Of a DNA stretch of 37,996 bases, positions 2 to 10,052 are shown piece after piece. Origin of the DNA: Sulfurovaceae bacterium (GTDB taxonomy: Bacteria > Campylobacterota > Campylobacteria > Campylobacterales > Sulfurovaceae); contig JADGER010000006.1 in NCBI GenBank assembly GCA_016744315.1, forward strand, positions 1 to 37,996, read 5' to 3'. The notes beneath the pieces were generated by a model. The model made no database searches and was not told the DNA's origin. It was given only the letters and a program-made list of their open reading frames with translations. Position 1 is the stretch's first letter, and each line of letters begins with the position of its first letter. The position numbers and the translations under genes are program-made.

Positions 2-550
2 AATAACGAAGCCACAAAAGAAAACTTTTTTAGTAATAATGAACAATATAATATCTTACACTGCTCTACGCATGGTTTTTTTGCTTCTAATGCCCTAGAG
101 TCAGGAATTGTTTTGAAAATACCTCAACAATTAATGCTAAAAAAAGGTGAAGTATTAGAAAATAAGTTACAAGAAAATCAAGAGTTACAACAGAGTATCA
201 TTACGGTTAATGACTTAATCAAGGAGTTAAATTCAGAGTTTGAACTGGTATTTTTCTCAGCTTGTGTAAGTGGTGAAAATAAGAATGAATCAGGAGATGA
301 GTTGATTGGTCTCTCTCGTGGACTTTTCTATGCTGGTACAAAAGCAATGATACTCTCTTTGTTTAATACTTTTAAAAATGTAACCGTTGATAATGATGTA
401 CATATCAAAAACTTTTATCAATATTGGATAGAAGAGAAACAACCAAAAGCAAAAGCATTTCAACGCTATATCCAAGAGGTAAAAGCAAAAGATGAATATA
501 AACATCCATTCTATTGGTTTGCTTATATTTTAATAGGGAATCCATATTAA
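2..550 (+). CDS. CHAT-domain (caspase-like) protease, 5' end outside window
   Basis: The reading frame is open from the left edge to the stop at 550; the track's start at 113 is an internal TTG, so this is the C-terminal ~182 residues of a longer protein. It shows both halves of a CHAT (caspase HetF-associated with TPRs) catalytic dyad: HCSTHGFF with the His codon at 71-73, and FFSACVSG with the Cys codon at 263-265. The family's C-terminal pattern follows: a GL-x-R-GLFYAGTKAMILSLF block and HPFYWFAYILIGNP at the very end. CHAT proteins are cysteine peptidases usually placed behind TPR or sensor modules in bacterial conflict systems. An AAGGA ribosome site and only 9 bases separate it from the next gene, so it heads (or continues) the operon. 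The N-terminal partner domain cannot be seen. Both catalytic residues look intact. Confidence 0.9.
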   Translation, partial: NNEATKENFFSNNEQYNILHCSTHGFFASNALESGIVLKIPQQLMLKKGEVLENKLQENQELQQSIITVNDLIKELNSEFELVFFSACVSGENKNESGDELIGLSRGLFYAGTKAMILSLFNTFKNVTVDNDVHIKNFYQYWIEEKQPKAKAFQRYIQEVKAKDEYKHPFYWFAYILIGNPY

Positions 551-559
551 GGAAAAAAT

Positions 560-1456
560 ATGTTAGATAAAAAAGAGTTACTCGAAGAGATTGAGATATT
601 TGAGAAATTAGATATTATCTATATTTTAGAAGTCTTACAAAATAAACTTGATGATAATAATGAAATTAGAGCAGATAAAACTATAGAATTAGATAGTAAT
701 ATGATTGAGACTATTAAAGAACTGTTATCTGCTCTAGTAAGACATAGCGATAATTTTAGAAAAATTTTCAATTTGGCTTTAGTGGAGATAGATAGTTATA
801 ATAAAGTTGCTAATATTGATATTGAAGATACAAATATTTCTAAAGAAAATATTGAGTTTTTATATGCTTTATTAAAAAACATAGCGTTAAATCATCAAGG
901 CTTTGGCGATAATGTTGCAGGAGATAAAACCACTCATAATACTAATAGTGTAAATATTAGTGGTTCTAACTCAGGAGATATAATCATCAACACAAAAGAT
1001 ATAGATTATGCGTCTAAGTTAAAAAACATACTCTCTAATCTACCTATAGGTAATATCCTATTTAATGCACCCAAAAATATTTCATTGAATGAGTCAAAAA
1101 AAGCAATTTTACGAATCTCGAAACAAAGTATTGATATAAGTAATTTACCACAAAACAATCAACAAATAGAAGAAAAATTAGAAATATACTCTTTTATGTC
1201 TGCAAAACTGATGAGCTTTGATTTTGATATTATGAATAATAATCATGAAGAACAAGCTATTGGTGAAAAAGACTTTACAGAGTGGTCATGGTATATTACT
1301 CCTAAGATACAAAAAGATAAAGGAGTGCTTTTACTTCGTATTAGCATTAGGATACCTTTAGACAAAAATAAAGAAGAGAAAAAAGATTTACCTCTATTTG
1401 AAAAAAATATAGATATTTTAGTTAAAGAAGATAAAATACTAGAAACAGGAGAATAA
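560..1456 (+). CDS. Unknown protein with GDxxxGDK motif linker and C-terminal beta-rich domain
   Basis: A 298-residue protein that I cannot assign to a named family. Residues 1-110 are charged and look all-helical. Residues ~114-145 hold the island's shared motif (GFGDNVAGDKTTHN, then SVNISGSNSGDIII). Residues ~165-298 look like a beta-rich domain containing MSAKLMSFDFDI, EEQAIGEKDFTEWSWYITPK and alternating hydrophobic strands. A similar W-x-W...P layout occurs, as far as I recall, in domains attached to bacterial CHAT/TIR conflict proteins. There is no signal peptide or membrane segment, so it is probably cytoplasmic. The start has AAGGA 7 bases upstream; the gene lies 9 bases after the CHAT gene and 3 bases before the hydrolase, so it is surely co-transcribed. 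An adaptor joining the protease, hydrolase and NLR through the shared motif is an inference from context only. Confidence 0.85.
   Translation: MLDKKELLEEIEIFEKLDIIYILEVLQNKLDDNNEIRADKTIELDSNMIETIKELLSALVRHSDNFRKIFNLALVEIDSYNKVANIDIEDTNISKENIEFLYALLKNIALNHQGFGDNVAGDKTTHNTNSVNISGSNSGDIIINTKDIDYASKLKNILSNLPIGNILFNAPKNISLNESKKAILRISKQSIDISNLPQNNQQIEEKLEIYSFMSAKLMSFDFDIMNNNHEEQAIGEKDFTEWSWYITPKIQKDKGVLLLRISIRIPLDKNKEEKKDLPLFEKNIDILVKEDKILETGE
899..994 (+). repeat. Shared island motif, copy 1 (full form)
   Basis: Encodes GFGDNVAGDKTTHNTNSVNISGSNSGDIIIN-type sequence in the middle of the unknown protein. It contains both halves of the motif: the GD-x-x-x-GDK part and the S-x-x-I-SGSNSG part. The copies match better as protein than as DNA. 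Confidence 0.85.
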
Positions 1457-1459
1457 AAT

Positions 1460-2440
1460 ATGAGTGAAGAGCGATATAAAATTTTTTCAATTAACCCAGA
1501 TGATAAAAATACTCAAATGGATGTCATTTTTATCCATGGTTTAGGTGGTGACAAGTATTCAACATGGCAAAATTCAAATAATGAATCATGGCAAAAGTGG
1601 TTAGCCAAAGATTATAATGTATCAGTTTATTCTATAGCTTATGGTGCAAATATGACTAATTGGGATGAAGATGATATGAAACTCGATGAAACAGCTGATT
1701 TTTTCTTAAGTTCATTAAAAAGTGAAGGTATAGGAGATAAACCTTATATGTTTGTAGTGCATAGCTTAGGAGGATTGCTAGTAAAGAATATTTTATTAAA
1801 AGCACAAAATAGTAAAGATTATAAATACTTATTGGATATGTGTAAATCTATTGTTTTTTTTGCTGTTCCTCATAGTGGGTCAGGATGGGCAACTCTATTG
1901 AATTATGGGAAAGTATTATTAAGAAGTAGTAATCTATTAGAGTCATTATCTAAAAATACACAAGACCTCCATAACTTAACTACAAACTTTAATCAATTGA
2001 TTATTAATAATAAGATTGAAACTTATGTATTTTATGAAACCAAAAAGGTAAAAATAGAAAAAATAATAGGCTTTAAAAGTATAGTTGTAGTCAGTAGAGA
2101 AAGTGCAACGATTGTACATTCAACTAATCAAGTTATTCCACTACCTAAAGACCATATTACTATCTGTAAAATTGATGATAGAGATGATGACTTATATAAG
2201 CATAAAATAAAAAGTATTATGAATAAAACTATAGAGATAAATCAAGTATCAACTCAAAAAGAGTCTCAATCAGATGAACAAAATAATTCATCTACTACTA
2301 CATCCATTCATTATGGTTCTGGAGATATTATTACAGGAGATAAAGTTACTCATAATAACAATAGTGTTAGTATCGGTGGTTCAAATTCTGGTAGTATTGT
2401 AATAGGAAATAATAATAAGGTAAATAAAAATGGAAAATAA
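1460..2440 (+). CDS. SesB-like alpha/beta hydrolase effector with C-terminal shared motif
   Basis: A 326-residue serine hydrolase of the alpha/beta fold. Visible landmarks: the oxyanion strand VIFIHGLGGDKYSTW (residues ~23-36), nucleophile elbow VVHSLGGLLVK with Ser102, the IVFFAVPHSG strand, ETYVFYET, SRESATIVHST, and a late KDHITICK with His232 as the likely catalytic base. This series is characteristic of the SesB-like esterase/lipase domain known as the effector of many fungal NLR proteins. Residues 284-320 carry the motif HYGSGDIITGDKVTHNN / SVSIGGSNSGSIVIG. No secretion signal is seen. AGGAG lies 8 bases before the ATG; the 3' end overlaps the NLR gene by 11 bases, which suggests translational coupling and paired function. 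The natural substrate (phospholipid or other ester) cannot be read from sequence. Confidence 0.88.
   Translation: MSEERYKIFSINPDDKNTQMDVIFIHGLGGDKYSTWQNSNNESWQKWLAKDYNVSVYSIAYGANMTNWDEDDMKLDETADFFLSSLKSEGIGDKPYMFVVHSLGGLLVKNILLKAQNSKDYKYLLDMCKSIVFFAVPHSGSGWATLLNYGKVLLRSSNLLESLSKNTQDLHNLTTNFNQLIINNKIETYVFYETKKVKIEKIIGFKSIVVVSRESATIVHSTNQVIPLPKDHITICKIDDRDDDLYKHKIKSIMNKTIEINQVSTQKESQSDEQNNSSTTTSIHYGSGDIITGDKVTHNNNSVSIGGSNSGSIVIGNNNKVNKNGK
2309..2419 (+). repeat. Shared island motif, copy 2 (full form)
   Basis: C-terminal motif of the first hydrolase: HYGSGDIITGDK, then SVSIGGSNSGSIVIG. The first ~35 bases (cattatggttctggagatat...) are nearly the same as DNA at 2457 in the next gene, so they form a direct repeat about 148 bases apart spanning the gene junction. 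Confidence 0.88.
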
Positions 2441-4496
2441 AGAGATACACCCAAAGCATTATGGTACTGGTGATATTATTTTAGGTGATAGACATGAACA
2501 CCATCATCAAGCCCCTCATATAATCCCCAGAGTCTTAACCAAACAAGTAGGTCTAGCCAACGATATAGACTTCGTAGGGCGAAAAAATGAGCTACAAAAA
2601 GTAGATGAGCTTTTAAATCAAAACGCTATGTTGCTTCTGCTCAATGGTATTGGAGGTATTGGTAAAAGTACATTAGCATCCTATTATCTTAATCAAAAAA
2701 AAGATGAGTTTGATTATTATGGTTTTGTGCAGGTTAATGAAGATATAAAACTAAGTCTTGCTTCTGCTTTTTCTACTTCTCTCGATTTAAAATCAGAAAA
2801 AATTGATGATTTGTTTGCTGAAATAATGAGTAAGCTCAATAATTTAGATAAAAATAAAAAAAAGCTTCTTATTATAGATGATGTTAAAGAGATGGATAAT
2901 CAGAAAGATGAAATAAATACTCTTATGACACTTAAAAATAATGGTTTTCAAATTTTATTCACTTCACGAGAGGTTAAAGATAATATTAAAAATTATCCTT
3001 TACCTATGATGAATGAGGGAGATGCTAGAGATTTATTTTTGAAACATTATGATACGGATGATATAAATAATATTGATATTATTGTAAAAGAGTATTTAGA
3101 TTATCATCCATTATTTATTGAAATGACAGCAAAAACATTATCTTTAAAAAGAAGATTATCACTTAACGAAATTATAAAAAAATTTGAAAGTGAAGAATAT
3201 CAAGTAGTAAAAAGAGATGATATTGAAAGTTACCATAAGTTTTTGGATAATTTTTCTATGAATGACCAAGTTTTACAAAATGAAGAAACACTATTATTTA
3301 TAAAAAAGTTAGCTTTATTACCGTCTATCGAAATTTCTTTTGAGGAGTTGTATAAGTTTTTAGTTTGTGATAATAAAGATAATAAAGATAAATTAGATAA
3401 TTTTTTAATTAAACTTATTCGCAACGGTTGGTTAATTGAATTTAAAGATGGATATAAATTTCATCAAATTTTACGAGATTATATTTTAGAGAGATATAAA
3501 CCTAAATTTGAAGAGATTGAAAAGCAAATAGATTATTGTATATATTTAACAAAAGATAGTTCAGATCCTCAAAAAGCTTTGGACAACAGAGATAATTTAA
3601 TTTATTTTAAATCTATCTTGGCATTTATTGAGAAAGAAGAAATCAAAAATCAAAAAACAGCTACTATATACAATAATTTTGGACTTACTTTTAACTATTT
3701 AAATGAGCCTGATGAAAAAATCATCAGATTATATGAAAAATCTTTAAAAATAAGAGAAAAAATAGAAAATAAAAATACAGCTGAAACACTTAATAACTTA
3801 GCAGGAATATATAGTTTCCTTAAAAATTATAGGGAAGCACAGCTATTTCATTTTAAAGCTTTAAAAATAAGAAAAAAGTGTAAACTTGAAAATGAAATAG
3901 GTTCAAGTTATAATAATTTAGGTGTACTCCTTTACAGAAAAAAAGAATATCATAAATCAAAATTATTTTGGTGTAAATCTATACAAATATGGGAAGGTTT
4001 ACGAGGTAAACTAAATAAGGATTCTAAAGAATTACCTAATCTAAATAGTTTACTGGCTAAAGCTCATGATAACTTAGGAGTATTGTATAAAGTAACTGAA
4101 GAAGTAAGTTCAGTTGAAATTATAAAATTACATGAAAAAGCTTTAAATCTAAGAATAGAATCTTTATCTGAATGGCACATTGATAAGGCTTCAAGCTATA
4201 AAAAATTATCGGACTTATATTTTGAAGAAAAGAATTTTGAAAAATCTTTTGAGTTTATACAGGAATATATAAAAATATATGAAGAGAATTTTCTAAAAAG
4301 TGGTTCTAAATTAGTTGAGGTAAAAGATAGCTTCAAGAAGAGCGTCTTAAATTTATTTCATCAATATCAAGATAAGAATATCTCTATAGGCATAGTTGAT
4401 GAAAGTTTTAATATAGATAGAGAAGATGTTTTGGCTCTTTTCAAAAAGCATGATATAAATTCGGTCGATTCTGAATTAGAAGAGTTTAACAAATAA
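2430..4496 (+). CDS. NB-ARC ATPase with TPR repeats (NLR-like sensor), N-terminal shared motif
   Basis: A 688-residue STAND NTPase. Residues 10-26 are the short form of the shared motif (HYGTGDIILGDRHEHHHQ). The NB-ARC module follows: FVGRKNEL at ~48, Walker A NGIGGIGKST at 72-81, Walker B KLLIIDDV at ~145-152, the arginine sensor LFTSRE near 176-181, a GLPL-like YHPLFIEM at ~225-232, and a winged-helix region ending in an MHD-like FHQILRDY near 344-351. From ~405 to the end there are tetratricopeptide repeats (NNFGLTF..., LNNLAGIYSFLKNY, NNLGVLLYRKKEY, DNLGVLYK...). Such proteins stay ADP-bound until the repeats sense a trigger, then oligomerise. The N-terminal motif, in the place where effector or adhesion modules normally sit, and the 11-base overlap with the hydrolase gene suggest that it recruits the hydrolase. 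Function as a sensor is inferred from family and context. Confidence 0.92.
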   Translation: MENKEIHPKHYGTGDIILGDRHEHHHQAPHIIPRVLTKQVGLANDIDFVGRKNELQKVDELLNQNAMLLLLNGIGGIGKSTLASYYLNQKKDEFDYYGFVQVNEDIKLSLASAFSTSLDLKSEKIDDLFAEIMSKLNNLDKNKKKLLIIDDVKEMDNQKDEINTLMTLKNNGFQILFTSREVKDNIKNYPLPMMNEGDARDLFLKHYDTDDINNIDIIVKEYLDYHPLFIEMTAKTLSLKRRLSLNEIIKKFESEEYQVVKRDDIESYHKFLDNFSMNDQVLQNEETLLFIKKLALLPSIEISFEELYKFLVCDNKDNKDKLDNFLIKLIRNGWLIEFKDGYKFHQILRDYILERYKPKFEEIEKQIDYCIYLTKDSSDPQKALDNRDNLIYFKSILAFIEKEEIKNQKTATIYNNFGLTFNYLNEPDEKIIRLYEKSLKIREKIENKNTAETLNNLAGIYSFLKNYREAQLFHFKALKIRKKCKLENEIGSSYNNLGVLLYRKKEYHKSKLFWCKSIQIWEGLRGKLNKDSKELPNLNSLLAKAHDNLGVLYKVTEEVSSVEIIKLHEKALNLRIESLSEWHIDKASSYKKLSDLYFEEKNFEKSFEFIQEYIKIYEENFLKSGSKLVEVKDSFKKSVLNLFHQYQDKNISIGIVDESFNIDREDVLALFKKHDINSVDSELEEFNK
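2457..2507 (+). repeat. Shared island motif, copy 3 (short form)
   Basis: N-terminus of the NLR-like ATPase: HYGTGDIILGDRHEHHHQ. Only the GD-x-x-x-GD half is present; the IGGSNSG half is absent and replaced by a His-rich run. Close in DNA to copy 2. Confidence 0.85.
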
Positions 4497-4522: not shown

Positions 4523-6814
4523 ATGACCAAACAAATAAACCTACCCCAACTAATCAAAACCTCAACCGATGAAACATTCAGAACAAACCTAAAAACTGTT
4601 GTAGAAAAAAATGTCCCTTTTGGTGAGAGATTGACACTTTATAATCATATCGCAAATAGTATATATACTGATGGTTATACTGTTTTTGCTATCTTTGCTT
4701 GGGAGCTTGGGTTGGATTATCTTGATAGTGATGAGATAGATGGTGTTTTAAAGGCTGATTTGCTTAGGAGTTATGGTTTGGCTTGGATGGAGTTAAATCA
4801 TTTTGATTTATCTATAGAGTATCTCAATGAAGCTATGGAGTTTTTAGATAATCGTGATGATGGGATATTGATAGATATATATTTTGGTCTCTCTATCGTA
4901 TATAAGCATTTGACTGATATGCCAAAAGCCATTGAGTATGCTAAAATGGCTACCCACACTGCTAAAAAAATGAATGATGACTTTGAAATATCAAGAGCTT
5001 ATCTAAATACAGGGAATTTACTCTCTAAGACAAATAGATATGATGAAGCCCTAGAGAATTATCAAAATGCTTTAAAGTATTCTACTATGGATGAAGTCAA
5101 ATCCAATGTTTTGATGAGTTTGGGGCTTTTATATAAAAACACAATGGAGTATCAAAAAGCCAAAGAGACCTTTGATGAGGCAGAGAGACTTTTTAAGAAA
5201 CTAAAATTTGTCAATGAGATGTTTGAGCTTTATATTAACTATGGCATACTCTATACCAAACTAGCAAAGTTTGATAATGCAAAAGAGTATCTTCAAATGG
5301 CATTGGACTATTTTGAAGAGATAGATGATAGTTATAATATGACCATTTGCTATCTAAATCTAGGAAGAGTAGAACAAGATAGAGCTAAATTCTCTACATC
5401 TTTGAAGTATTTTAATAGAGGTGTTGCACTTTGTAATAGTGATGATAATCTTATCTCTTTGGCTTCTCTTTTGTATTATAGTAGAGGAAATATATTTTTA
5501 TCTCTCAAAGAGTATAAGAAGGCTTCTAGTGATTATCAAATCGCTATACAATATGCAAAAGAACAAAATGATACTTCTATGGAGGCTTCTATTAAAAATG
5601 CTTTGGCAGGACTTGAAGCAGATAAAGGAAATATTGATACAGCACAAAAACTCTATCAAGAGATTTTGGAGGTGTTTCAAAAAGATAATAATATTGAAGA
5701 GATAGTGGCTACTTATACAAATATGGCACTTTTATATGAAGAAAAGGCGATGCATCAACTCGCTCATAAAGCATATACTAAAGCTCTTAATTTAGCTCAA
5801 ACAATTGATATACCACAGTTAGAAATATCTATACTTATCAATATGGCTGAGATGTTTGCTAGTATTGCAGATAGTCACAAAGCAATTGAACTCTATAATC
5901 AAACCTTTGAGCTACTAGAAAATTATGACAATGATGATTTACTCTCAAAGTGCTATTTAAATTTGGCTAATATATATGAGAGTATTACAGAGTTTGATTT
6001 GGCTCTTAAATATGCAAAACTAGGACTAGCACTTAAAGAGAAGTTGGGATATGATGATAAGTCACTCTATATCATTTATGATTCATTGGCTCGTATTTAT
6101 GATGGGCTAAAACAAGAAGAGGAAGCTGAGAAATATTACATCAAAACACTTCAAAGTGCAAAAGAGTATAACCCATCACACTATTATGGAATGTTAGTGA
6201 ATTATGGTCTATTTTTGTTTAAATTCAAAGAAGATATTCTAGGTGCAATAGAGTGCTATGACAAGGCAAAAGCCTATTTTGAAAAACATCAAAAATATGA
6301 AACACTTATCGCTATCAATAGTAATTATGCGATGATATACGAGTCTCAATCACAAAGAGAAGATGCCATAAAACACTACAAAAAAGCACTAGAGTATGCT
6401 GATATATTTATCTCTTTTATAGAAGATGAAAACATTATGATGAAATATAGAATTAACTTTGAACATATATACGAAAATTTAGTACAACTCTATATCCAAA
6501 AAAAATCATACAAAAAGGCTTTTGAAACCATAGAAAATCTAAAATCAAGAACCTTTTCAAAGATACTCTCCTCAAACTATTTCCACTCAAATAAAATCCC
6601 AAAAAATCTTTTGGCAAAAGAGAAAAAGCTCAAAAAGGAGTTAAATCAAATACTTTCTAATGATTTAGATATAGTAAATCTCGATAGTATGCTCCAACCC
6701 ATCTATAAAGACTTAAGCAATCTCTATACCAACATGAGAAAGATTGATACAAATTATGTTTTAATCAAAGAGAATAGTATATTAGGGTTTGATAGGATTA
6801 AGGGTGTTTTATAG
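4523..6814 (+). CDS. Long TPR protein lacking the expected C-terminal CHAT domain
   Basis: A 763-residue protein made almost entirely of tetratricopeptide repeats (for example AYLNTGNLLSKTNRYDEALENYQNAL, SLGLLYKNTMEYQKAKETFDEA, CYLNLANIYESITEFDLALKYAKLGLAL), roughly 16-18 units of the 34-40-residue type. After ~600 it carries the helical connector usual in TPR-CHAT proteins (ALEYADIFISFIEDEN, IENLKSRTFSKIL). It ends in YVLIKENSILGFDRIKGVL, close to where the CHAT peptidase domain would normally start. No catalytic domain remains. The start is ATG 26 bases after the NLR stop, with no strong ribosome site, so translation may be coupled. Either it is a stand-alone TPR scaffold or sensor, or a TPR-CHAT gene that has lost its protease. 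The first CHAT gene of the operon might supply the activity in trans; that is inference. Confidence 0.9.
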   Translation: MTKQINLPQLIKTSTDETFRTNLKTVVEKNVPFGERLTLYNHIANSIYTDGYTVFAIFAWELGLDYLDSDEIDGVLKADLLRSYGLAWMELNHFDLSIEYLNEAMEFLDNRDDGILIDIYFGLSIVYKHLTDMPKAIEYAKMATHTAKKMNDDFEISRAYLNTGNLLSKTNRYDEALENYQNALKYSTMDEVKSNVLMSLGLLYKNTMEYQKAKETFDEAERLFKKLKFVNEMFELYINYGILYTKLAKFDNAKEYLQMALDYFEEIDDSYNMTICYLNLGRVEQDRAKFSTSLKYFNRGVALCNSDDNLISLASLLYYSRGNIFLSLKEYKKASSDYQIAIQYAKEQNDTSMEASIKNALAGLEADKGNIDTAQKLYQEILEVFQKDNNIEEIVATYTNMALLYEEKAMHQLAHKAYTKALNLAQTIDIPQLEISILINMAEMFASIADSHKAIELYNQTFELLENYDNDDLLSKCYLNLANIYESITEFDLALKYAKLGLALKEKLGYDDKSLYIIYDSLARIYDGLKQEEEAEKYYIKTLQSAKEYNPSHYYGMLVNYGLFLFKFKEDILGAIECYDKAKAYFEKHQKYETLIAINSNYAMIYESQSQREDAIKHYKKALEYADIFISFIEDENIMMKYRINFEHIYENLVQLYIQKKSYKKAFETIENLKSRTFSKILSSNYFHSNKIPKNLLAKEKKLKKELNQILSNDLDIVNLDSMLQPIYKDLSNLYTNMRKIDTNYVLIKENSILGFDRIKGVL

Positions 6815-6872: not shown

Positions 6873-8882
6873 CTAGCTTGGTACTATCTTCATATTTCTA
6901 AACAACTCTACAAAAAAACCATCAGGTATCATAGCCAAAATATGATAAGCAGTGAAGAAGAGAGTAATAAGTGCTGAATAAAACTGTACTTTTTTTAAGC
7001 TATATATTTTTGCTCCCCATTTATCACCATAGTTTGAATATTTCTTTCTATAAATTAAGATATGACTAAAGCTTATCATAAATAGAATAGTAATCATAGC
7101 AAAAAGAAAATTTGTAATATGCCATATCCCAAAGTTATCAGGATAAGCAAAAAATATTGTTTTGAATGTTGAAGGAAGTTCAAAACCTTCCAAAAGTTGT
7201 GGAAAAAATAGAGGCAAAAAAGTACAAATGAAAACAATTATCAAAGAGTAAACAAACATCAAATAATTTTGAGGAAGTGTTGTTTTCTTTTTCATTTTTT
7301 CAGTTAAATCAGCTTTTTCTGAGGGGATTATAAGCCAAAGAAGTGGTAAGTATATCCATGCAGTTGATTTAATAGAATATCTAAATAAAATCACAGGAAT
7401 AAAAACAGCAAAGAGGAACAAAAAAAGTGTAATTATATCAATAAGTTTCACTATTATCTCTAGCTCTCCATTCGATTCTCTAACCAAAGTATTTATAGAT
7501 TTATTAATAAATTTACTAGTTTTATATTTAGAATTTGTTTTTGATATGCTTGGCATAAGCTCAATGGGATGAAAAATATCAGTAGAAAAAGTTATTTTAT
7601 ACCAATTATTTGGGATCTTATTAATAGATCTCAATGAAAAACTTTTAATAGTTGTAAAGCTTTTTAAGATCCAAATAGGTAGATGAAAGGCTAATAAAAA
7701 TGATACTAGTATAATACAAAAAAAATTATAGTTATTTTTTTGCTTTTCTATCATTTCAGTTGGAGTTAGAATATAGAGATTATTATACCATATAGGTAAA
7801 TATTCTTTTAGTAAATAATCTTGAGGTAAAGAATTTTTTGGAAAAAATATTTCACAAAAAAGATAATAAAAGTCAGTATTAGTGATTATATCTATTATTA
7901 TAAGAATTAGAAAAACTGTCAAACCAAGAATTAATGCTGTACTTAAATGATATTTCTCAAAAAGTGCTAATCCATAATTATCTGATTTCTCTGTTCTCAA
8001 TAAAAACAAAGGAGCAACAATTAATCCAATAATAATATGCCAATAAAAATCATAAGTAAACCAAACATAAAAAGAAATACTTACAGCCAATACCGTCTCT
8101 ACCAATGCTAAAACCGAAAACTGCAACTTATCAGCACTCTCTACCGAGCTTATCCATACTTTATCTTTGAATATCTCTTTGGAAAGTATATTGGAGTTTT
8201 CACTTCGCAAAGCTTCTTGTAAAGGTTTAAAATACTCAACTACCTTTTGAATCGGTATCATAGATTGGGCATCTATCATCACCCCACTAATACCTCCACT
8301 ACTTATATCCCATAGTGGAGTACCACTAAAGCTATTGGCTATAATAGACTTTTTGTCTATGGTAATTTGTTTTTTGCTTTTGGATAAATTACCTTTATAA
8401 CTCCCCTCTATCCAATCATTTATTTGACTATCAAACCCACAAGCGACAAACTCTTGTCCATAGTCAGCAGTCGTGACAAGTGGAATATTAAAAGGTTCTT
8501 CACTCTCTATCTCTAATAATGCAATGTTGTGGATGGAATTAGTCTCGACCACTTTAGCTTTAAATTGTAATTGAGGTTCACGCAGGGCAAAGGTGACATT
8601 TAGAGTCTCAAAATTGGCGATGTTCTCATAGGTAGTGATGATGTAGTTGGAGGTGATTAAAAATCCACTCCCTATAACCTCATTATCACCATTATAAATA
8701 GAGACGATGGAAGCGTTATAGATGTCAGGAATGGAGATATTACTATCTCTTTTATGGTAGATATTGGTTACATTATAGTTTTCATAGTAGTTTTCAGCAT
8801 AGATGGTGCGTTGATTATTGTGTATGACTTTATCACCTGTGATATTGTCACCACTCCCACTATGATTTGATGAATTTTCCAT
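6873..8882 (-). CDS. Trypsin-fold (degenerate triad) membrane protein with N-terminal shared motif
   Basis: A 669-residue protein. Residues 7-43 hold the shared motif (HSGSGDNITGDKVIHNN) followed by RTIYAENYYENY. Residues ~52-235 resemble the trypsin-like peptidase domain used in bacterial conflict proteins: GSGFLITSNYIITTYENIA, HNIALLEIE and NSFSGTPLWDISSGGISGVMID. The Ser motif is kept (Ser196), but the position expected for catalytic His reads Glu86 (ITTYENI instead of TAAHVV) and the Asp position reads Asn119, so peptidase activity is doubtful. From ~254 to the end there are about ten hydrophobic segments, so it is a polytopic membrane protein with its N-terminal domain probably cytoplasmic. 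It converges on the TPR gene and diverges from the second hydrolase. A membrane-permeabilising effector, or a membrane anchor controlled by the motif, is inference. The first ~820 coding bases look richer in GC than the membrane part. Confidence 0.85.
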   Translation of the reverse strand: MENSSNHSGSGDNITGDKVIHNNQRTIYAENYYENYNVTNIYHKRDSNISIPDIYNASIVSIYNGDNEVIGSGFLITSNYIITTYENIANFETLNVTFALREPQLQFKAKVVETNSIHNIALLEIESEEPFNIPLVTTADYGQEFVACGFDSQINDWIEGSYKGNLSKSKKQITIDKKSIIANSFSGTPLWDISSGGISGVMIDAQSMIPIQKVVEYFKPLQEALRSENSNILSKEIFKDKVWISSVESADKLQFSVLALVETVLAVSISFYVWFTYDFYWHIIIGLIVAPLFLLRTEKSDNYGLALFEKYHLSTALILGLTVFLILIIIDIITNTDFYYLFCEIFFPKNSLPQDYLLKEYLPIWYNNLYILTPTEMIEKQKNNYNFFCIILVSFLLAFHLPIWILKSFTTIKSFSLRSINKIPNNWYKITFSTDIFHPIELMPSISKTNSKYKTSKFINKSINTLVRESNGELEIIVKLIDIITLFLFLFAVFIPVILFRYSIKSTAWIYLPLLWLIIPSEKADLTEKMKKKTTLPQNYLMFVYSLIIVFICTFLPLFFPQLLEGFELPSTFKTIFFAYPDNFGIWHITNFLFAMITILFMISFSHILIYRKKYSNYGDKWGAKIYSLKKVQFYSALITLFFTAYHILAMIPDGFFVELFRNMKIVPS
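8754..8864 (-). repeat. Shared island motif, copy 4 (with NYYE tail)
   Basis: N-terminus of the trypsin-fold membrane protein: HSGSGDNITGDKVIHNN followed at once by RTIYAENYYENY. The IGGSNSG half is missing, but the NYYE tail is shared with copy 5 (RKIDAKNYFEKID). Confidence 0.8.
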
Positions 8883-8999: not shown

Positions 9000-10052
9000 A
9001 TGAGCGAACGATATATAATTGAAAAAATAGCAAAGAAAGATAATGGAGATTTTGATGTAGTTTTTATCCATGGGTTGGGTGGAGATAAATTTACAACATG
9101 GCAAAACTCAGAAGGACGATCTTGGCAAGATTGGTTGGTACATGATAATGAAAATATGTCAGTTTGGACTATAGGCTATGGAGCTAATAAAACCAATTGG
9201 ATTGAAGATGATATGTCTTTGGATGATACGGCAGGTTTTCTATTGGGGTCATTACAAAGTAAAGGTATTGGAGAAAAGCCTTATATGTTTATTGTGCATA
9301 GTCTTGGTGGGCTATTGGTCAAAAAAATCCTGCTTAAAGCACAAATAAGTGATGAATATGAAAATATTTCAACCATGTGTAAATCTATCATCTTTTTTGG
9401 TGTACCACATAATGGTGCAGGATGGGCATCTTTGTTTAATTATGCTCAAACATTTTTGCGAACGAGTGATGTATTTCAGGCACTCTCAAAAGATACAAAC
9501 TCTCTTCATCAATTGGCACTTGATTTTAATACTCTAGTGAGAAAAAATAAAATTAACACTTATGTATTTTATGAGACCAAGGAGATCCGTGCCAAGGGTT
9601 TACTTGGTTGGTTACATCTCAAAAAAGGAATAAAAGTTGTGAGTCAGCAGAGTGCCACACAAGTACACTCTACTAACACACCTGTAGCAGTCCACCAAGA
9701 CCATATTTCCATGTGTAAGCTTGAACCAGAATTTTATCAAACTCATATATTACCAATTATGAAAAAAGAACATCCTCAAAAAGAGAAGGAAAAACAATCA
9801 CAACAAGAAAGCAATAACCCTAACAATATATCAAATACAACGACTATCACACAAACACATTCAGGAAAGGGTGACAATATAGGTGGTAATAAAATCGTCA
9901 ATAATAATGGTATCTCTATAGGTGGTAATAATACGGGTGCAGTTGTGTCGGGTGATGCTAACAGTGTCACAATAGAGAACAATGAACGCAAGATTGATGC
10001 GAAGAATTATTTTGAGAAGATTGATAATAATGGTAGTATGAATTTTGATTAA
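9000..10052 (+). CDS. Second SesB-like alpha/beta hydrolase with C-terminal shared motif
   Basis: A 350-residue paralogue of the hydrolase at 1460, identical at more than half of positions by eye across the catalytic domain. It keeps VVFIHGLGGDKFTTW, the elbow IVHSLGGLLVKK (Ser101), IIFFGVPHNGAGW, TYVFYETKE, SQQSATQVHST and HQDHISMCK (His235). After a KEKEKQSQQE linker, residues 287-325 carry THSGKGDNIGGNKIVNNN / GISIGGNNTGAVVSG, and the last ~22 residues read RKIDAKNYFEKIDNNGSMNFD, which echoes the N-terminal RTIYAENYYENY of the divergent membrane protein. It is preceded by its own TATAAT box and AAAGGG ribosome site. The shared motif and tail suggest that it works with the divergent trypsin-fold protein and perhaps with the NLR upstream. 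The substrate is unknown. The protein is probably cytoplasmic because no signal peptide is seen. Confidence 0.88.
   Translation: MSERYIIEKIAKKDNGDFDVVFIHGLGGDKFTTWQNSEGRSWQDWLVHDNENMSVWTIGYGANKTNWIEDDMSLDDTAGFLLGSLQSKGIGEKPYMFIVHSLGGLLVKKILLKAQISDEYENISTMCKSIIFFGVPHNGAGWASLFNYAQTFLRTSDVFQALSKDTNSLHQLALDFNTLVRKNKINTYVFYETKEIRAKGLLGWLHLKKGIKVVSQQSATQVHSTNTPVAVHQDHISMCKLEPEFYQTHILPIMKKEHPQKEKEKQSQQESNNPNNISNTTTITQTHSGKGDNIGGNKIVNNNGISIGGNNTGAVVSGDANSVTIENNERKIDAKNYFEKIDNNGSMNFD
9858..10049 (+). repeat. Shared island motif, copy 5 (full form plus NYFE tail)
   Basis: C-terminus of the second hydrolase: HSGKGDNIGGNKIVNNN, GISIGGNNTGAVVSG, then RKIDAKNYFEKID. This is the only copy that shows all three blocks in order, and it links the forms seen in copies 1-2 with that in copy 4. 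Confidence 0.85.

Follow-up and report, generated by a model that had tools for sequence, protein, structure and literature searches.

A candidate NLR/hydrolase effector module with a shared terminal motif in a Sulfurovaceae bacterium

Introduction

In the bacterial pairs termed BASS, a motif is present at the C-terminus of an effector and at the N-terminus of an NLR, with the two genes adjacent or overlapping (PMC7889193). The effectors named are Bell and, less often, CHAT and TIR proteins, from Actinobacteria, Cyanobacteria, and Archaea (PMC7889193, PMC9815663). These pairs originate from Dyrka et al. 2020, which is followed here as described in PMC7889193 and PMC9815663. In fungi, PNT1 has a PP-NB-ARC-TPR architecture, and HET-S/NWD2 and HELLP/PNT1 form comparable pairs (PMC12881547). 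Fungal NLRs and EAD systems are both known to use hydrolase effectors (PMC8195603, PMC9815663, PMC7159879). No published account of a hydrolase/NLR pair coupled by a motif was found, although the 2020 founding BASS paper may mention some.

The window analyzed here, a 37,996-nucleotide stretch of contig JADGER010000006.1 from a Sulfurovaceae bacterium, contains a gene pair that resembles BASS in two respects: the genes overlap by 11 bases, and a common motif lies at the effector C-terminus and the NLR N-terminus, where it is shortened. It differs from BASS in that the effector is an alpha/beta-hydrolase rather than Bell, the taxon is Campylobacterota rather than Actinobacteria, Cyanobacteria, or Archaea, and the motif is present on at least five genes; the likeness to BASS is drawn from published descriptions. 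As in fungal HELLP/PNT1, the window has a motif-NB-ARC-TPR order and a partner with a C-terminal motif (PMC12881547). However, the partners in HET-S/NWD2 and HELLP/PNT1 carry HeLo/HELL membrane domains, while the window partner is a hydrolase. In fungi, a SesB-like hydrolase is usually part of the NLR protein, whereas the two are separate in the window, and the likeness to fungal pairs is one of architecture.

EAD conflict systems carry a duplicated terminal adaptor on the core NTPase and on effectors that include alpha/beta-hydrolases, trypsins, and caspases, with several copies per locus (PMC7159879, PMC8195603). The window likewise has five copies in 10 kb, although most EADs are folded helical domains, the window motif is short with no structure in the monomer model, and no MoxR-vWA core was seen at the locus. 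ABC-3C and retron-type effectors have a hydrolase domain homologous to that of the window but different sensors, and no terminal motif was seen in them. Bacteria usually place a membrane-targeting protein in this position and the window a hydrolase; the layout is a known one, in which the hydrolase effector appears to be new.

Results

The predicted effector, a 326-aa SesB-like/DUF676 alpha/beta-hydrolase, is encoded at 1460..2440 on the forward strand. Its DUF676 match (2e-6) is over the curated Pfam cut-off, and its best PADLOC model is DUF626_VIII (6e-22), which, from the model name, we take to be a retron-VIII hydrolase. An AlphaFold2 model built with 30 relatives had a mean pLDDT of 79.9, with 174 residues above 90 and an alpha/beta-hydrolase fold as its core, while the tail from residue ~277, motif included, was low-confidence or unstructured in this monomer model. 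The top structural match was the Legionella phospholipase PlaB (Z 18.6 over 220 residues, rmsd 2.9), and further matches were the Bacillus lipase BlEst2 and other superfamily members, with lipases and dehalogenases among the neighbors. Since the Z values are closely spaced, they do not settle the substrate.

A serine elbow (HSLGG) and a catalytic His are both present. His232 (codon 2153-2155) and Glu193 (2036-2038) are invariant among the 30 relatives and Ser102 (1763-1765) is nearly so; all three are invariant in nine. A previous sequence-only reading of this DNA had proposed a SesB-like effector with intact Ser102 and His232 and had named structure prediction as a check, and the domain match, the residue conservation, and a core with pLDDT above 90 whose nearest structures are lipases and phospholipases all agree with it. 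Glu193, which that reading did not name, is the likely catalytic acid, based on its invariance and its position after a strand.

The hydrolase stop and the NLR start overlap by 11 bases at 2430..2440 on the forward strand (ATGGAAAATAA), and both open reading frames have exactly the coordinates first assigned to them. The NLR gene (2430..4496, forward strand) encodes a 688-aa NB-ARC-TPR protein, the predicted sensor, with matches to NB-ARC (1.4e-12) and TPR_12 (7e-21). Taking an NLR to be an NB-ARC or NACHT protein with Walker A and B motifs and C-terminal repeats, this protein is one: the ATPase motifs, previously read as intact, are present as Walker A (GIGGIGKS, residues 73-80, 2646-2669) and Walker B (KLLIIDDV, residues 145-152, 2862-2885), and an MHD-like motif lies at 3459-3482, all on the forward strand. 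Oligomerization on activation is established for the NB-ARC class. An NLR in genome G177 is 62% identical to the window NLR across the N-terminal part and has its own motif copy, so the N-terminal motif is a family trait of these NLRs.

The motif connecting the two proteins is G/D/N-rich and 20-35 aa long. The hydrolase copy (2297..2410, forward strand; HYGSGDIITGDKVTHNNNSVSIGGSNSGSIVIG) lies in the low-confidence tail, which is rich in N, G, S, and I, and the NLR copy (2445..2516, forward strand; HYGTGDIILGDRHEHHH) is shortened. Alignment of the hydrolase tail with the NLR N-terminus (HYGSGDIITGDKVTHN / HYGTGDIILGDRHEHH) gave a local score of 63, which none of 5000 composition-preserving shuffles reached (maximum 48), and mismatched hydrolase/NLR pairs from other loci scored at most 39. 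A profile made from the other four copies scored the window NLR copy at only E 0.086; in G335, the same profile detected a trypsin-nSTAND1 protein at 3e-10, and its matches to the N-termini of the G335 and G177 NLRs were at 2e-7 to 2e-5. We hold the NLR copy to be real because of the pairwise score and the clear copies at the same place in homologous NLRs. The order and number of motif elements vary across copies; the hydrolase tail has GSGD..GDK followed by SIGGSNSG, and the window NLR has the first element only.

Five window genes in 10 kb carry the motif (866-985, 2297-2410, 2445-2516, 8778-8876 on the reverse strand, and 9831-9968). The sequence-only reading had described it at the effector C-terminus and sensor N-terminus, and those two copies stand, but the motif is not confined to the pair: it belongs to a five-gene cluster whose other three members were absent from that reading, and the NLR may therefore drive more than one effector. 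Only one more copy, a weak one, was found elsewhere in the genome, at the C-terminus of a protein (G000:C252) that we take to be Roc-COR-like. No Pfam or NCBIfam matches cover the motif in the window proteins, and the motif peptide had no match among plasmids, where low-complexity filtering is possible. Profile matches in the phylum are confined to a few genomes, and most of them are terminal in an NLR, an effector, or a STAND protein.

The pair lies in a same-strand series of a CHAT half, a 298-aa protein, the hydrolase, the NLR, and a TPR protein, separated by 9, 3, -11, and 26 nt. The first of these (2..550, forward strand) encodes the C-terminal half of a CHAT protease whose gene is truncated at the contig edge, with His (HCSTHG) and Cys (SACVSG) present. 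The 298-aa protein (560..1456, forward strand), 3 nt upstream of the hydrolase, carries the motif internally at 866-985; its C-terminal part matches the central part of a G303 LRR protein at 42% identity, and its structure model is too poor for interpretation (pLDDT 44). In the TPR protein (4523..6814, forward strand), 26 nt after the NLR, neither the motif nor a CHAT domain was detected. Its C-terminal end resembles the linker that precedes a CHAT domain, with no CHAT following; as the first bases of the contig are already within a CHAT gene, the assembly may have been interrupted by a repeat. A promoter and terminator scan gave results barely different from shuffles.

The protein encoded at 6873..8882 on the reverse strand combines the motif (8778-8876) with a trypsin-like domain and hydrophobic segments. 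Its His and Asp positions look replaced (TTYENIAN, HNIALL) and its Ser site is kept. The G335 trypsin-nSTAND1 fusion, 59% identical to it, has the same replacements, which suggests that the two represent a conserved pseudoprotease. A second hydrolase (9000..10052, forward strand) is 55% identical to the first and has its own C-terminal motif (9831-9968).

The phylum was confirmed as Campylobacterota with EPSY549, a published epsilonproteobacterial 16S probe (PMC4703759), whose site occurs in 44 of 61 phylum-mates and never in the reversed control; the assembly of the window itself lacks 16S. Neither 396 other Campylobacterota genomes nor the rest of the same family (175 genomes) yielded the exact hydrolase/NLR pair, and a close hydrolase was in none of the others among 397 phylum genomes. 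The expectation that such a pair would be unusual in Campylobacterota was thus borne out, with the exact pair in one genome only. The motif itself occurs in 5 of the 175 family genomes. One of them, G518, encodes a 108-aa protein and a NACHT NLR that share the window's motif (L144:3-1874, G518:C191, reverse strand). The 108-aa protein is hydrophobic at its N-terminus and ends with the motif (QTHYGSGDNVAGDKVVYNK); we call it Bell-like, a name of our own, and its Pfam match is a sub-threshold one to HetE-N (0.084). The NACHT NLR (6.6e-17) lies 9 nt downstream and begins MSNQNHSGSGDNIAGDKHEHYHH, and the ending GD[RK]HEH.H is common to it and the window NLR (score 70). Protein order and motif placement in G518 match the Bell/NLR layout in the literature (PMC7889193). 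In G177 and G335, too, NLRs carry the motif at the N-terminus, with no motif-bearing gene adjoining. Conserved pairing in related genomes, on which the sequence-only reading had made its case depend, was found in part: the exact pair is not conserved, but the same family has a Bell-like/NLR pair with the same motif, and hydrolase pairs with other motifs occur elsewhere.

Complete absence of such hydrolases from the family was rejected, as a broader model matches 16 of the 175 genomes. The matches examined are divergent PGAP1-like hydrolases near WD40 proteins, and they do not carry the motif. At L145, L146, L147 (G538, G539), and L143 (G518), hydrolases of this kind lie near WD40-repeat proteins, several of them with a P-loop, and make up a second hydrolase/STAND-type pairing that lacks the window's motif. 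Two other Campylobacterota loci, L121:6686-8197 and L026:6884-7399 (reverse strand), have motif-like G/N-rich stretches and a similar small helical C-terminal domain (..TAKTVGEVGVTFMELIPKIVEFLG); LRRs are present in the L121 protein as well, together with the domain that forms the C-terminus of the window's 298-aa protein.

Scanning the genome collection with the two window hydrolases as query gave no match, but a broader hydrolase alignment did. The 80 best-scoring loci of this contig scan, which are not a random sample, comprised 33 short or stand-alone hydrolases, 14 P-loop fusions, 13 ABC-3C-like proteins, 17 other long proteins, and 3 uncalled loci. Among 25 proteins encoded directly after stand-alone hydrolases, 7 matched NB-ARC, 6 NACHT, and 7 nSTAND3 (the categories overlap), and related hydrolases precede STAND/NLR genes in cyanobacteria and Competibacter. 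Four such loci share a terminal motif between the hydrolase and the next gene, in each case different from that of the window: L046 and L112 (nSTAND3), L058 (NACHT), and L096 (a small next gene, then a P-loop-like ORF). When these were taken together with the window, matched scores exceeded mismatched scores at all five loci, and the true pairing was the best of 120 permutations.

Motif matching as a universal property of hydrolase/NLR pairs was rejected. Many pairs, such as those of Moorena, have no detectable shared motif, so motif coupling is one solution among several, with fusion another. Because bacteria also commonly have SesB-like hydrolases fused to STAND proteins, the separate genes of the window do not mark a contrast between fungi and bacteria, as the sequence-only reading had supposed. 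Relatives of the hydrolase are effectors in defence-type systems, including ABC-3C. No match to the hydrolase was found in phage records, and three matches on viral contigs are ABC-3C-like or long fused proteins without the window's motif.

Discussion

We propose that the NLR recruits and activates the hydrolase effector through the BASS-like motif, and we consider such an NLR/effector module probable, with appreciable room for doubt. In the resting cell, the NLR would be monomeric and the hydrolase inactive or dispersed. Sensing of an intruder or stress by the TPR side would lead the NB-ARC domain to oligomerize and bring the N-terminal motifs together, and the clustered motifs could then template the matching C-terminal motif of the hydrolase into an active assembly. 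The assembled enzyme would probably act on membrane lipids, with growth stop or cell death as the outcome. This suggests, by analogy with fungal NLR/amyloid cell-death pairs, a self-destruct or anti-phage switch. We favor motif-templated recruitment because the NB-ARC class oligomerizes, the motifs are at termini able to meet, the enzyme residues are intact, and homologous hydrolases are effectors elsewhere. Counted against the module are the presence of the exact pair in one genome, the shortened NLR copy and its weak profile score, the motif-bearing NLRs of G177 and G335 that have no motif-bearing neighbor, and the glycine/asparagine-rich composition of the motif, which makes chance similarity easier. 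That templating proceeds by amyloid rather than ordinary binding seems to us slightly short of an even proposition.

The motif might instead be a soluble homotypic adaptor, a beta module resembling effector-associated domains, in which case the NLR and hydrolase would still be a signaling pair that works by ordinary oligomeric binding. What defines EADs is just such a duplication at the termini of core and effector proteins (PMC8195603), their usual partners are alpha/beta-hydrolases, trypsins, and caspases (PMC8195603, PMC7159879), and copies of the window motif also lie inside the 298-aa protein and in, or beside, Roc-COR-like proteins. However, of the 12 original EADs, 9 fold as alpha-helical domains (PMC8195603), and the window motif has more in common with BASS motifs, being short, G/N/D-rich, without structure in the monomer model, and the link between a Bell-like protein and an NLR; we regard a soluble adaptor as unlikely, if still a serious contender.

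A different division of labor is raised by the tight spacing of the CHAT fragment, the 298-aa protein, and the hydrolase, and by VMAP ternary systems, in which caspase-type domains are always accompanied by an adjoining alpha/beta-hydrolase (PMC7159879). The hydrolase could work with these two upstream proteins, and the NLR, rather than being its sensor, could be a co-acquired neighbor sharing the motif, as the solitary motif-bearing NLRs of G177 and G335 would allow. The overlap of the NLR gene with the hydrolase gene, the motif on the NLR itself, and the wide recurrence of hydrolase-STAND adjacency make this improbable. It is more improbable still that the likeness is compositional, a resemblance between glycine/asparagine-rich tails that do not interact. 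The composition of the hydrolase tail and the poor leave-one-out score of the NLR copy would fit such a view, but composition-preserving shuffles never attained the observed score, matched pairs beat mismatched pairs at five loci, and profile matches in the phylum are few and mostly terminal.

If the module of NLR and motif-coupled hydrolase is real, bacterial amyloid-type NLR signaling would extend beyond pore-like Bell effectors and beyond filamentous phyla, the motif would be a plug that lets an NLR drive an enzyme, and the fungal SesB-like effector class would have free-standing, motif-coupled bacterial relatives. The second hydrolase, the 298-aa protein, and the degenerate trypsin-like membrane protein have the motif too, and through it one NLR could address several partners. 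A stronger form of this idea, which we find doubtful, is a multi-effector amyloid hub in which one NB-ARC NLR would nucleate two hydrolases, a membrane-anchored pseudoprotease, and a further adaptor via a single motif, with the motif family swapping freely between Bell-like and hydrolase effectors in one bacterial family. Since the Bell-like pair of G518 and the hydrolase pair of the window share the motif, effector swapping and cross-activation are directly testable.

Two further arrangements were observed among the hydrolase loci. A recurrent set at L046:5941-11349, L112:5941-11118, and L096:5959-10507, from cyanobacteria and Competibacter, combines a motif-bearing hydrolase, an nSTAND3-type NTPase with the same motif, an SPFH/Band 7-like protein, and a DUF4829-like protein, and from its gene content looks like an undescribed conflict system. 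At L067:1387-4550 and L081:3056-4345, a SesB-like hydrolase with a TIR-looking C-terminal extension (ISYSHKDK...) is encoded directly before another gene, which in L067 specifies a NACHT protein.
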